64,000 nt of DNA from NCBI GenBank assembly GCA_002215645.1, contig NGFI01000004.1, forward strand, positions 62,001 through 126,000, read 5' to 3'. Shown in pieces: positions 188-7,201 of the stretch (position 1 is the first letter of the stretch; every line of letters starts with the position of its first letter). This DNA comes from Gemmatimonadetes bacterium 2013_60CM_65_52. GTDB lineage: Bacteria; Gemmatimonadota; Gemmatimonadetes; Gemmatimonadales; Gemmatimonadaceae. A model generated the notes under the pieces. The model saw only the letters and a program-made list of their open reading frames with translations, was not told the DNA's origin and ran no database searches. The position numbers were made by a program, and so were the translations under genes.

Positions 188-1171
188 CTATACGTACGTC
201 AACCACCCACGGTCGTCCGTTCGCTCACCGCGCACGGTGGCGAAGAACGCGCGCTGCAACGTCGTCGTCATCGGGCCGCGTCGTCCCGAGCCGACCACGA
301 GGCCATCGACGGCGCGGACCGGCGTCACCTCCGCGGCCGTGCCAGTGAAAAACACCTCGTCGGCCGCATAGAGGGCCTCGCGCGGAATGCGTTCTTCCCG
401 CGTCGGGATGCCATGGTCGCGCGCCAGAGTGAGCACCGTGTCACGCGTGATGCCGGCCAGGATGGACGACCCACTCGGCGGCGTAAGGAGGACGCCGTCG
501 CGCACCAGGAAGATGTTCTCTCCCGAACCTTCACTCAGCGTGCCCGAGGTATCCAGCGCAATACCTTCCGCGAAACCGAGACGCTCGGCCTCCATGGCGA
601 TGAGCTGGCTCGACACGTAATTGCCTCCCGCCTTTGCGCCGGTCGGAATGGTGTTCGGCGCGGGCCGCGTCCACGAGGAGATTCCCACGTCCACGCCGGT
701 CTCGAGGCTTTCTTCTCCCAGGTAGGCGCCCCAGGGCAGCGCCGCGATCATCATCTCCACAGGGTGGCGCGTCGCGTTGAGCGAGAGGCCGCCCACGCCG
801 CGCCACGCGAGCGGACGCAGATAGGCATCCGTCAACCTGTTGCTTCGCACCACGTCGCGGCACGCCGCGAGGAGTGCTGCATCGTCGAGCGGAAGCTCCA
901 TGCGATACAGCCGCGCCGATTCACGCAGACGACGCAGATGCTCGCGCGCGCGGAACAGTGCCGGTCCGCGCGGCGTCTCGTAGCAGCGCATTCCCTCGAA
1001 CACCGACGAGCCATAGTGCAACGCGTGCGTCATCACGTGCACCGTTGCAGACGCCCATGGCACGAGGCGGCCGTTGAACCAGATGCGCTCCGGCAGCGCC
1101 CCCAGGGGAACGTTCGCTGGAGATGTGGTCGTCTCCAGGCGCGCTTCGCTGAGCGTGCTCGCGGCACTCAC
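188..1171 (-). CDS. ilvE: branched-chain amino acid aminotransferase
   Basis: [60 protein letters not shown] are class IV aminotransferase motifs; GTG start overlaps ilvC stop by 4 bp. Confidence 0.93.
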
Positions 1172-2253
1172 GATGCACCTGCGCCGGCAACTTCCGGCGT
1201 GGCCGATGGGCGCAGTGCCGTGGCGGGTGCCTCGACTGCGTTCTGTCCGGGCAAGACTTCCTTCGCGTCGAGAAACGGCATCATGCGGCGCATCGCACGG
1301 CCCACCGACTCGATCTGGTGCGACGACTCCGCTCGGCGACGTGCGTCGAAGGACTTTCGTCCGGTGCGATTCTCCTCGATCCACCGCCGTGCGAACGAGC
1401 CGTCCTTGACCTCGTCCAGCAGCTTCTGCATCTCGCGCTTCGTCTCCGCGGTCACGATGCGATCGCCGGCGACGTAATCGCCGTACTCCGCCGTGTCCGA
1501 CACGGAGTGCCGCATGTAGTTCAATCCGCCGCGGTACATCAGATCGACGATCAGCTTGAGCTCGTGCAGGCACTCGAAGTACGCGATCTCCGGTTGATAT
1601 CCATTGGCCACGAGCGTCTCGAAGCCGGCCTTCACGAGCGCCGAGGCACCGCCGCAGAGGACCGCCTGCTCGCCAAACAGATCGGTTTCCGTCTCTTCGG
1701 CAAAGGTTGTCTGAAGAACGCCGGCGCGCGTAGAGCCGATTCCTTTTGCGTACGCGAGCGCGTCGCTGAGCGCATGACCGGAGTAGTCATTGTGCACGGC
1801 AACGAGTGCGGGCACACCGGCGCCTTCCGCGAACAGCTCGCGAACGCGGTGACCCGGCGCTTTGGGCGCGACCATGATCACGTCCGTATGCGCGTTCGGT
1901 GTGATCTCGCCGAAGCGGATGTTGAATCCGTGCGCAAAGAGCAGCGTCTTGCCAGGCGTGAGATGCGGTGCGACCGACTCCTCATACACCGCCCGCTGTG
2001 TGTGATCGGGAGTAAGGATCACGATGAAATCCGCCTCGCGCGCGGCCTGCTCCGTGGTCACCGCCCGCAGTCCCTCGGATTCAGCGGCGGCGCGACTGCG
2101 TGAGCCGGCCGCGAGTCCGACGCGCACGTCGACGCCGGAATCGCGCAGGTTGAGCGCATGGGCATGTCCCTGGCTGCCATAGCCAATGATCGCGACGCGG
2201 CGGCGCGTGAGGCGTTGGAGATCGGCGTCGGCGTCGTAATAGAGAGTGGTCAT
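1168..2253 (-). CDS. ilvC: ketol-acid reductoisomerase
   Basis: [56 protein letters not shown]. Confidence 0.97.
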
Positions 2254-2597
2254 CGAGCTGGCTCCTGAGGGTTCGAAGAAGGGGCAAAATGAGGAAAGTC
2301 GAAACGGCGCATGGCGTCGGCCACCTGCTCGAGCCGAGCGTCCTCGTGGGGGATCTCCTGGACGGAGAGGACGTCGATGAGCCGCGAGAGCTGCTGGACG
2401 ATCTGATGGACGTCGGCAGCTTCGACGACCAGCAGCATGCGGCTCGTTCCCGAATCGCCGGTGGCACCGACGACGAGGCTCGAGACGTTGTAATCGCGGC
2501 GCCGAATGAGGCCGATGGCGCGATAGAGCGCGCCGGGCCGGTCATTGAGGTGCACCACGAGCGTGTGCCGCTGCGTGTTCGCAGGAGCGGTCGTCAT
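2250..2597 (-). CDS. ilvN: acetolactate synthase small (regulatory, ACT) subunit
   Basis: [39 protein letters not shown] domain; position between ilvB and ilvC. Confidence 0.92.
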
Positions 2598-4402
2598 GGC
2601 CGCTCGGCGTAAGCGGCAACGACGCTCGGCGTGGTATGCGTGTGCGCGTCCACGAGCATCTCGCCGATGCTTCGTCCTTGCGGGACGATCGGAAAGACAT
2701 TGGCCTCGCGCTCAACGCGGAAGTCGAGCACGACGACGCCAGGATAGTTCCATGCGTCGTCGATCGCCTGCTCGACCTGATCCACGCTGTCCACGGTCAC
2801 GCCGCACACGCCATAGGCTTCGGCCAGCTTCGCGAAGTCGGGCCCGGAGAGTGGCGTGCCGCTGTACCTGCGTCCCTCGAAGAGCTGTTGCCACTGCCGC
2901 ACCATGCCGAGGTAGCCGTTGTTCACGATGGCGATCTTGACGTTCGTCAGGCCTTCCTGCGCCATCGTCGCGATCTCCTGATTCGTCATCTGGAATCCGC
3001 CGTCGCCGACGACCACCCAGATCGTCTCATCAGGCAGTGCGATGGCGGCACCGAGCGCGGCGGGGACGGCGAAGCCCATGGTGCCCGATCCGCCGCTCGT
3101 GATGTGCGAGCGTGGGCGGTGCCAGTCGAGCAGTTGAGCCGTCCACATCTGATGCTGTCCGACGTCCGTGACGACGCGACAGTTGCCGCGCGCTCTGCGT
3201 GCTGCGTTGAGTGCGGCGCAGACGTCGTTCGGTTGGAGCGTTCCGTCATCTGTGCGACGCCGATACGCCTGCCGCGGCTCGAACTTGTCGCGCAGCGCGT
3301 GCACCTCCTCGAGCCAGGCGGACCGATTCTCGAATTCGGCCCCCGTCGCGTCGGCGTTTCGAGTCGGGAGTTCTTCCAGAGCAGATTTCAACGCGCGCAA
3401 TGCGGCGCGTGCATCGCCAACGATTCCAACACGAACCGGAACCAACTTCCCGATCTCCGACGGATCGACGTCCACGTGAATCACTGCCGCATGCGGTGCA
3501 AAGGTGGATGCCTTTCCGGTGACGCGGTCGTCGAAACGGCTGCCGACGTTCAACAGCACGTCACACCGCTGGATGGCGCGATTCACGTGCACCCATCCGT
3601 GCATGCCCGGCATGCCAAGGCTCAGCGGATGGTCCTGCGGAAATGATCCGAGTCCGTGCAGCGTGGTGATGACCGGAATTCCCGTGTACTCGGCGAGTGC
3701 AAGCAGCTCCGCCGATGCACCCGACTGGATCACGCCGTTGCCGACGAGGATGAGCGGACGACTCGAGGACGCCAGCAGGGCGGCCGCCTCGCGAACGGCG
3801 CCCGCGTTCACCTCGCATTGGCGATGGTCGTCGTATCCTGCGAGATCGAGCGTAACGTTCCAGTCCGGGACGATACTCGCTTGCTGCGCGTCCTTGGTCA
3901 CGTCCACAAGCACCGGGCCGGGCCGTCCCGTGGACGCGAGGTAGAACGCCTCCGCGATGACGCGCGGGATCTCGCGCGGATCGCGCACGAGATAGCTGTG
4001 CTTCGTGATGGGGACCGTGATGCCGACGATGTCCGTCTCCTGAAATGCGTCGGTGCCGAGCAGTGCGCTGGAGACCTGTCCCGTGATGGCGACCATGGGT
4101 GAGGAGTCCATCCACGCGTCCGCGATGGGCGTGACGAGGTTCGTGGCGCCAGGTCCGCTCGTCGCCACGCACACGCCGACACGCCCACTCGCGCGCGCGT
4201 AGCCTTCCGCGGCGTGTCCCGCGCCCTGTTCGTGGCGGCAGAGCACGTGATGCAGTTGTTCCGAGTACTCCGGCAGCGCGTGGTAGAATGGCATGATGGC
4301 GCCGCCGGGGATGCCGAAGATCACATCCACGCCCTGGCGCACGAGTGCTTCGCAGAGGATCTGCGCGCCGGTGCGCAGATCCGGATTCGGCGTGGCGCTC
4401 AT
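2594..4402 (-). CDS. ilvB: acetolactate synthase large subunit (TPP enzyme)
   Basis: [76 protein letters not shown] motif; ATGA overlap with ilvD. Confidence 0.96.
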
Positions 4403-6159
4403 TTCGCGACTCCGGCAAATGCGTCGCTCGGCTGCGACGTCCAGCTGGGCACCGTGTCCGCCGCGGGGCGGTGATCGGGCACCGCGAGCACAGCGCCCGT
4501 GTGTGCGCTCGTGACCAATGCCGCATAACGAGCCAGCCAGCCGCGCGTGAACTTTGGCGGTGGTGCGTGCCATTCGCGTCGGCGACGCTCGAGCTCCTGC
4601 TCCGAAAGGTCGACGTCCAATTGACGTGCAGCGAGGTCGATGACGATGACGTCGCCGTCGCGCAGCAGGCCAATCGGGCCGCCCTCAGCGGCTTCGGGAG
4701 AGACGTGGCCGATGCACAGTCCGCGCGTTCCTCCGGAGAAGCGGCCGTCCGTCACCAGTGCGACTGACTCTCCAATTGGCATGCCCTTGAGGAGGCTCGT
4801 GAGCGCGAGCATCTCGCGCATGCCCGGTCCGCCACACGGACCTTCGTTGCGCACGATCACCACGTCGCCGGAGTGAATCTTTCCCGCCATCGCCGCGGAG
4901 GTTGCAGCTTCCTCGCTGTCGAACACGCATGCCGGACCGCGGAACGTCATCTCGTGCTGCGACACCGCGCCGACCTTGATGACTGCGCCGAGTGGCGCGA
5001 GCGATCCGAAGAGCACGGCGAGTGCGCCGCGCCGCGTGTGCGGGTTGTCGATGGGGCGAATGCACTCCGGATTCAGATTGGCGACGTCTGCCACCGATTC
5101 GCCGATCGTCTGCCCGGTGACCGTCAGCGCATCGAGGTGCAGCGTGTCCGGTTTCTTCGCGAGCTCGGCGAGAATTGCGGGAATGCCGCCGGCTCGGTGA
5201 ACGTCCTGCATGTGCCATTGGCGCGTACCGTCCCACGCCGGCGAGACCTTGGCGAGATGCGGCGTCCGCTCGGCCACCTCGTTGAAGCGCGACAGCGGGT
5301 AGTCCACTTCGGCTTCGCGTGCGAGGGCGAGGACGTGGAGCACCGTGTTTGTGGAGCCGCCCATCGCCACGTCGAGGGCAACCGCGTTGTCGATTGCATC
5401 CGGCGTCACGATGTCGCGGAACGTGACCCCATCGCGGACGAGCTGCATGAGCGCCTGTGCCGCTCGGCGCGCGAGCGCGTGCCGTTCAGGCGACGTCGCG
5501 AGGATCGACCCATTGCCCGGCAGCGCCAAGCCGATCGCCTCGCAGAGGCAGTTCATCGAGTTCGCCGTGAACATGCCGCTACAGCTTCCGCACGTCGGAC
5601 ACGCGAGTCGCTCGAGCTCGAGCAATCGTGCGTCGTCGATCGTTCCTGCGGCGCGTTGTCCCACAGCTTCGAACACCGAGATGAGGTCCACCTTCGTCCC
5701 AGAGGAGTCCACGCCCGCTTCCATCGGTCCGCCCGAGACGAACACCGTGGGGACGTTCGCTCTCGCCGCGCCCATGAGCATGCCGGGCACGATCTTGTCG
5801 CAGTTCGGGATGCAGATCACCGCGTCGAAGCAGTGCGCGCGGACCATCGTCTCGACCGAGTCCGCAATGATCTCGCGCGACGGGAGGGAGTAGTGCATGC
5901 CCTCGTGGCCCATGACGATGCCGTCGTCGACGCCGATGGTGTTGAACTCGAACGGGATGCCGCCGGCTTCGCGGATGGCCTCTTTGACGACTTTGCCGAA
6001 GGCCTGGAGGTGGACGTGTCCGGGCACGATGTCCACGTACGAGTTGCACACCGCGACGAACGGGCGGTCCCATTCGCCGTCCTTCACCTGGCCTGTTGCG
6101 CGCAACAGGCTGCGGTGGGGTGCTCGCTCCATGCCACGTTTGATCGTGTCCGATCGCAT
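4399..6159 (-). CDS. ilvD: dihydroxy-acid dehydratase
   Basis: [61 protein letters not shown]. Confidence 0.97.
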
Positions 6160-6185
6160 GCCGACCTCGAGAGGGGGTAAATGCG

Positions 6186-6219
6186 ACCGCGGCCCGTCCT
6201 GGTTGGGACGGGCCGCGGT
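6186..6219 (-). terminator. candidate attenuator terminator hairpin upstream of ilvD
   Basis: Perfect 14-bp GC-rich inverted repeat accgcggcccgtcc-tggttg-ggacgggccgcggt, between leader ORF and ilvD start; no strong U-tract. Confidence 0.65.
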
Positions 6220-6275
6220 GACTCGAGATCCGCGCTGCCCCTCCCGTCTGGAGAGGGGCTGCGGTCGTTGTGCTG

Positions 6276-6368
6276 CTACGCCGCTGGACCCTCTCGCACG
6301 CCAATTACCTCCGTAAGCGATACGGAGGCTACGACGATAATCGAGAGGAGACTGCGCGAGGCGAGCAT
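6276..6368 (-). CDS. ilv operon leader peptide (30 aa), attenuator-type
   Basis: [36 protein letters not shown] control-codon run, followed by hairpins and the ilvD-B-N-C-E genes. Confidence 0.75.
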
Positions 6369-6403
6369 TATCCGGGCTGTACGGAGTTTCGTGCGGCTTT
6401 CAT

Positions 6404-6433
6404 ATGATAGGGCGATGCGGGCGGGGAGCACAA
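6404..6433 (-). promoter_or_regulatory. candidate sigma70-type promoter of ilv operon
   Basis: Minus strand TTGTGC (6433-6428) - 18 nt - TATCAT (6409-6404), about 35 nt upstream of the leader ATG. Confidence 0.45.
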
Positions 6434-6532
6434 GGGGAGCTGCCCGCTTTCGCAACAGCGCCCTACAGCAGAAGGGACGATCGGCGGGATTCGGCCGCAA
6501 CGGGACCAGGGCTCAATCCCCGGCCGCCGCCG

Positions 6533-6979
6533 TCAGACGTCCGGCCAGGGTGCGACGAAGTCGAAACGCTCGGCCTGTCGGATACGCTCGAAGTCGCGCA
6601 CATTCGCGGTGACGAGCGTCAGGCCAGCGCTACGGCAAGAAACGGCCAGCAGCACGTCGTTGAGAAACGAGCGGCCGAAACCGCCCGGGCTGATGGTTTT
6701 CTCGCGCACGAGCTGCGCGACGATCTCCCCGCTGCGAGCCCAGTTCGCAAACGTCGGCGTGACAATCCGTCCGCGCGACTCAAAGGGGCGGACATACGCG
6801 TTGCGAATCGACACGCCGCGTCTGGCATCAACCGCGCCAAGCAAGAGTTCTTGAACCACTACGGCGTGAAGGTAAGTCGCAGGGAGACGTGCGGCGTAGA
6901 ATGCCGCGAGCTCCTCGGCTTTCGCTCCATCCCGATCGGCCGCGATATAGATGTTGGTGTCGAGGACGAAGCGTTTCAC
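6533..6979 (-). CDS. vapC: PIN-domain toxin, VapC family
   Basis: MKRFVLDTNIYIAADRDG...VVVQELLLGAVD...FLNDVLLAVSCRSAGLTLVTANVRDFERI: PIN acidic residues conserved. Confidence 0.85.
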   Translation of the reverse strand: MKRFVLDTNIYIAADRDGAKAEELAAFYAARLPATYLHAVVVQELLLGAVDARRGVSIRNAYVRPFESRGRIVTPTFANWARSGEIVAQLVREKTISPGGFGRSFLNDVLLAVSCRSAGLTLVTANVRDFERIRQAERFDFVAPWPDV

Positions 6980-6985
6980 CTCTGT

Positions 6986-7201
6986 TCACTTCGCAGGAAG
7001 ATCTCGGAAGACGTCGCGGAGGCTTCGCGTCCCGGCGACACGGCGGACGCCATCGATCACCTCTTGGCGAAACGCGACGAGATCGAGCGCCTGCTCGACC
7101 GTGTCGGTCTCCGTCTCCGTTCCGAGGATGCGCTGCGCGCGAAGCAGCTTGGCCTGCGTCAGGCGCAGGTTCTTGCGGACCTTTCCAGCCGTCCTGGGCA
7201 T
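6986..7201 (-). CDS. vapB: cognate antitoxin (VapB-like)
   Basis: 71 aa small protein 6 bp upstream of the PIN toxin; QRILGTETETDTVEQALDLVAFRQEV. Confidence 0.75.
   Translation of the reverse strand: MPRTAGKVRKNLRLTQAKLLRAQRILGTETETDTVEQALDLVAFRQEVIDGVRRVAGTRSLRDVFRDLPAK

Follow-up and report, generated by a model that had tools for sequence, protein, structure and literature searches.

The enterobacterial his attenuator comprises six alternating RNA segments, which pair as 1:2, 3:4 and 5:6 in the OFF state and as 2:3 and 4:5 in the ON state. Segment 1 contains the codons for the amino acid that is sensed, and RNA that is not translated defaults to OFF (PMC4046918, PMC10989985). In the lettering used for the his segments, B:C together with D:E is the read-through form, and the untranslated RNA adopts the attenuated form (PMC4046918). 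A candidate element of the same six-segment organisation, with the same default and the same placement of the sensed codons, lies upstream of ilvD in a 64,000-nucleotide stretch of DNA from Gemmatimonadetes bacterium 2013_60CM_65_52 (the window). The enterobacterial device senses His (PMC4046918, PMC10989985), whereas the window element would sense Leu, Ile and Val. Furthermore, its leader ORF has 30 codons, compared with 16, and is itself a long rod; it has an extra candidate stem at the ribosome-binding site and no U-tract.

Among attenuators of branched-chain amino acid genes, Listeria Rli60 and the Staphylococcus aureus ilvD attenuator are likewise ribosome-mediated, with a branched-chain-rich leader directly before an ilvD-first operon. 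However, they come from another phylum, their leader sequences have no detectable relation to that of the window and their published folds differ; the Listeria leader has 13 codons, and Staphylococcus has a U-tract terminator (PMC5864092, PMC5794164). The Corynebacterium ilvBNC attenuator and the ilvB-II motif also combine a branched-chain-rich uORF with mutually exclusive terminator, antiterminator and anti-antiterminator structures. Unlike the window element, they follow a three-hairpin model before ilvB in which terminator and antiterminator overlap, and no six-segment relay is described for them (PMC11857589, PMC10272879). Further structured RNAs upstream of ilv genes are the ilvB-OMG, Leptospira ilvB and Veillonella ilvD motifs. 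Of these, ilvB-OMG and the Leptospira motif have branched-chain-rich uORFs and sit before ilvB, unlike the window element; reports of the ilvD motif are confined to Veillonella (PMC10272879, PMC8632094).

It is proposed that a ribosome-mediated attenuator with his-operon topology controls ilvD-B-N-C-E in the window, a reading that is judged highly probable. Control of this kind is known in other bacteria, and its proposed extension to Gemmatimonadota is well supported and, as far as the literature searched goes, new. The search on Gemmatimonadota and transcription attenuation found no report; subscription papers fell mostly outside its scope, including a 2010 comparative attenuation survey (cited in PMC4833913), so that an earlier prediction is possible. 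The complete ON and OFF structures are testable, and would extend ribosome-mediated attenuation to this phylum.

Leader region and operon

The leader region is followed directly on its 3′ side by a five-gene minus-strand operon, ilvD-B-N-C-E, assigned from Pfam domains (Table 1). As judged from Pfam, tblastn and the position before ilvD-B-N-C-E, the genes that would be under control are those of the pathway of the leader-encoded amino acids. A PIN-domain gene (Pfam; 6533–6979) lies just upstream of the attenuator. The initial annotation of this DNA, made from the sequence alone, had described a promoter-like site, a 30-codon leader ORF, a hairpin overlapping that ORF, a second hairpin and a perfect GC hairpin before ilvD, as well as complementarity between GACGGG in hairpin 2 and CCCGTC. 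All of these are present in the minus strand.

Table 1. Features of the proposed ilv attenuator region and of the operon, in window coordinates.
Feature	Position	Strand	Evidence
Promoter-like site TTGTGC-N18-TATCAT	6404..6433 (TTGTGC 6433-6428, TATCAT 6409-6404)	(-)	Similar sites in relatives
Leader peptide ORF, 30 codons, Leu/Ile/Val-rich	6276..6368	(-)	Conserved in relatives
Segment 1, CTCCTCTCG, Leu-Leu-Ser codons, OFF-state partner of segment A	6342..6350	(-)	
Apical hairpin of leader rod, inside ORF, GCCTCCGTA/TACGGAGGT	6307..6329	(-)	
Segment A, GCGAGAGGGTCC, near ORF end, pairs with segment 1 (OFF) or B (ON)	6286..6297	(-)	
Segment B, 5′ arm of hairpin 2	6250..6262	(-)	B:C covariation
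Segment C, 3′ arm of hairpin 2, ON-state partner of D	6237..6248	(-)	
Hairpin 2, GCCCCTCTC/GGGAGGGGC, just past leader stop	6259-6237	(-)	
Segment X, GATCTCGAG, candidate anti-Shine-Dalgarno	6222..6230	(-)	
Hairpin D:E, terminator-type, perfect GC stem	6187..6218, 27 nt before ilvD ATG	(-)	
Tail after hairpin D:E, UCGCAUUUACC, poor U-tract	6176..6186	(-)	
Segment Y, CTCGAGGTC, includes ilvD Shine-Dalgarno-like GAGGT, pairs with X	6163..6171	(-)	
ilvD, first gene of operon	4399..6159	(-)	Pfam ILVD_EDD_N + ILV_EDD_C
ilvB, acetolactate synthase large subunit	2594..4405, start approximate	(-)	Pfam TPP_enzyme N/M/C in ORF 2594-4573
ilvN, acetolactate synthase small subunit	2250..2597	(-)	Pfam ACT_AHAS_ss
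ilvC, ketol-acid reductoisomerase	1168..2253	(-)	Pfam KARI_N + KARI_C
ilvE, branched-chain aminotransferase	188..1200, start approximate	(-)	Pfam Aminotran_4 in ORF 188-1573

A consensus scan of positions 5800–7000 returned no sigma-70 promoter, the promoter-like site falling below its threshold. The site is assigned because a similar one, TTGCGC-N17/18-TATCAT or TATCCT, sits at the same place in the close relatives L003, L028, L031 and L133 (relatives are given by locus number). More distant relatives (L032–L035 and L040–L043) carry a TTGACA-type site at the matching place. Between the promoter-like site and the first structural gene lies the short ORF, rich in codons for the products of the pathway; its ATG (6368) has no clear Shine-Dalgarno sequence in the window, nor in most relatives.

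At E ≤ 1e-200, 27 of the 179 genomes of the family have an IlvD of the window's type. Upstream DNA was readable at 28 loci of this ilvD type, including one in a neighbouring family of the order, and the leader is present at 25, which answers the check on conservation that the initial annotation had proposed. Leader peptides differ in sequence among relatives, with runs of L, I and V kept, and indels among close relatives are multiples of three. The best 14-residue window of the small ORFs holds a mean of 10.3 I/L/V residues across 24 leader loci; the mean is 4.4 for dinucleotide-shuffled sequence and 4.3 for the opposite strand. The same I/L/V criterion also picks the Staphylococcus rostri leader (L084), a natural positive control. 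Leader codon use favours rare CUU and AUU: in the leaders, CTT accounts for 76 of 182 Leu codons and ATT for 44 of 79 Ile codons, compared with 6 of 121 and 10 of 70, respectively, in three ilv genes of the window.

The leader goes with ilvD-B-N-C, an order kept in the seven leader-bearing loci tested (ilvN was undetected in L143); three solitary ilvD genes (L009, L039 and L044) lack it. No ilvB, ilvN or ilvC was found within several kilobases of these three; in two of their genomes ilvB has no match anywhere, and in the third only a 31%-identical one. Other genera have an ilvD type of 48% identity (L012–L021, L049–L052), upstream of which no comparable leader was seen by eye. A search of the window's genome with model R1 found no copies besides this element and its own reverse strand.

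Alternative pairings and ribosome position

Two folds were derived for the leader RNA. In the OFF fold, segment 1 pairs with A to form the rod 1:2, accompanied by B:C and D:E; the ON fold consists of A:B and C:D. A rod formed by the leader ORF RNA folding on itself is found at nearly all loci, and the stability of this RNA exceeds that of its synonymous recodings (24 loci, mean z −2.0). Slippage of the alternative helices left RNAalifold with a poor consensus on a MAFFT alignment of all loci, and the method was replaced by helix-anchored counts and by partner-swap tests between subclades. Own partners paired better than swapped ones for A:B (p=0.001), C:D (p=0.027), B:C and D:E (each p=0.00005), and the B:C covariation score, 0.323 vs 0.179, exceeded all 500 shuffles (0/500) and all slid controls; as the loci are related by descent, the swap and shuffle tests overstate independence. 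In D:E, 252 of 279 cells are paired and double changes occur at 11 of 13 positions. Compensatory stem changes, which the initial annotation had suggested looking for, are found in both hairpins.

These data bear on two other explanations of the region. The hairpins might serve as a processing site or a constitutive terminator, with the leader ORF encoding a small membrane protein that has no regulatory role; the peptide is indeed hydrophobic, and hairpins by themselves are common. Such a role is very unlikely, as L, I and V, in rare codons, make up nearly all of the hydrophobic residues, the complementarity between ORF and hairpins is preserved while the sequences change, and the leader is linked to the ilv operon. 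In other bacteria, ilv genes are under the control of ligand- or tRNA-binding riboswitches (T-box, ppGpp type or ilvB-OMG type; PMC10272879, PMC8632094), and one might stand here in place of a leader-peptide device. This is extremely improbable: neither the window nor any of 14 relatives matched an Rfam family at gathering score, and conservation resides in codons and complementarity, not in an aptamer-like core. Rfam scanning at the gathering cut-off, and also at E ≤ 10, gave only chance matches, and no ilv, T-box or leader family reached the cut-off; many annotation pipelines would miss such leaders.

The proposed attenuator would depend on ribosome position, and computation establishes its elements, their conservation, their alternative pairings and the dependence of these on the site of stalling. 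The transcript was folded up to the end of D, minus the part covered by a ribosome stalled at each codon, as equilibrium folding with no kinetics. For the window, this masking calculation predicts B:C (OFF) with no ribosome, A:B plus C:D (ON) with the ribosome stalled on any branched-chain codon in the stretch L7–V21, and B:C (OFF) with the ribosome at R25 to the stop codon. The window's switch score is 0.90, and 0 of 60 synonymous recodings did as well.

Scores above 0.6 were obtained at nine of 22 loci (the window, L028, L005, L031, L036, L037, L041, L040 and L010). Little or no switching is calculated for L134, L035, L008 and L043; in the L032 group, there is no return to OFF at the stop codon. 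In L133, which was kept out of model building, the changed A and B segments still pair and the ON/OFF profile matches that of the window. Computationally, mutually exclusive RNA structures are chosen by ribosome position, and the his-type topology (1:2, 3:4 and 5:6 vs 2:3 and 4:5, with an untranslated default of OFF) holds for the window; L042, L136 and part of the L032 group do not default to OFF.

The initial annotation had likened the layout to classical ilv/leu attenuation. Leader-peptide attenuation is supported, but the topology resembles that of the his operon, with six alternating segments and a leader RNA that forms a rod, rather than the simplest trp/leu form. A simple switch made of GACGGG/CCCGTC alone was set aside as incomplete; it leaves unexplained how a stalled ribosome frees C.

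We infer that transcription starts just after 6404, that the leader peptide is translated during synthesis of the RNA and that D:E is the output, possibly helped by X:Y. When charged tRNA is ample, the ribosome would reach the stop codon and cover segment A; B:C would then pair, leaving D free for E, and expression would stop. When Leu-, Ile- or Val-tRNA is scarce, the ribosome would stall at the early codons and open rod 1:2. Segment A would thereby be released to form A:B, followed by C:D, so that the D:E hairpin could not form in time and the operon would be expressed. Because the rod holds A when the leader is untranslated, the default state would be OFF. The device would thus sense a shortage of Leu, Ile or Val via a ribosome on a tiny peptide, and switch the genes on.

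The output step

The last hairpin had been called a terminator in the initial annotation; the hairpin is there, but a U-tract is missing from its tail, UCGCAUUUACC. Correspondingly, the consensus scan of 5800–7000 found no U-tract terminator and did not recognise D:E as one. A GC hairpin with a clear U-tract is present in relatives such as L040, and a U-tract terminator also occurs in the hisG leader of the window's genome. As the window's hairpin has no U-tract, transcription termination as its output is judged from the relatives, by analogy with which it is likely.

The X:Y stem encloses the D:E hairpin and covers the ilvD Shine-Dalgarno sequence in the window, and ribosome-binding-site control is a live alternative, as a rival or an addition to termination. 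In its full form, the leader would still sense amino acids, but the output in this subclade would be translational: X:Y would hide the Shine-Dalgarno sequence, formation of C:D would free it and termination would be minor. The U-tract is weak in L001, L003, L028, L133, L005 and L031, most of which have a strong X:Y. Pairs of X:Y could not be counted on the MAFFT columns because Y is misaligned; in the swap test, own X:Y partners were better than swapped ones (p=0.0012), and own was best of 13 in L001 (the window's own locus), L005, L031, L032, L041 and L010. Outside the sample, L133 carries X:Y as TCTCGAT/ATCGAGA, and the Shine-Dalgarno region is more open in the ON fold for L001, L005 and L031. 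However, accessibility is unchanged in L003 and L028, where CTCGAG is self-complementary, and the L032 group carries X:Y and a U-run together. In addition, C:D and X:Y could coexist as a pseudoknot, and relatives with identical upstream logic have clear terminators. A mainly translational output is possible but doubtful.

Tentatively, the output may have drifted between relatives in this Gemmatimonadota family: a terminator with a U-tract would have given way to a clamp on the ribosome-binding site, built around a hairpin without U residues, with no change in the ribosome-sensing relay upstream. If true, this drift would mean that a ribosome-sensing RNA had exchanged its expression platform. 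The relatives vary in the strength of the U-tract and in the presence of the ribosome-binding-site stem, and provide a system for testing how attenuator output evolves.

Distribution of the operon and further leaders

The ilvD-B-N-C operon is patchily distributed across the 179 genomes of the family (f1). Near-complete genomes such as G020 and G031 give no ilvD match and no ilvB match, which suggests branched-chain auxotrophy or another route.

Upstream of hisG in the window's own genome (L178; G000:C14:61291), a His-rich leader, MSGLRHRHLHHHYGPSGRGDARVDE, and a U-tract terminator lie about 180 nt from the gene and constitute a candidate his attenuator by sequence. The findings suggest that Gemmatimonadota use the attenuation strategy for more than one amino acid. 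In a relative (L161; G398:C40), too, hisG is preceded by a His-rich leader, MHRSVSQHHQHHHGRRPTGVRVWCVA, and a terminator. In L157 (G103:C1, minus strand), a Leu/Ile/Val-rich leader, MTASRTAVSRLICLIPADVTILVTSVLVVRTREKGLVVAAM, and two hairpins are followed only by a 55-aa ORF; from its sequence, this is a putative orphan attenuator.

Leu/Ile/Val-rich small ORFs also precede ilvD in metagenome-assembled genomes (MAGs) of several other phyla (L055, L059, L065, L067, L068, L074, L076, L077, L109, L117, L128, L129 and L131), including Calditrichia, Anaerolineae, Bacteroidetes, Neomarinimicrobiota and Desulfobacteraceae. Two of these, L074 and L076, have a long-range stem near the ilvD start.
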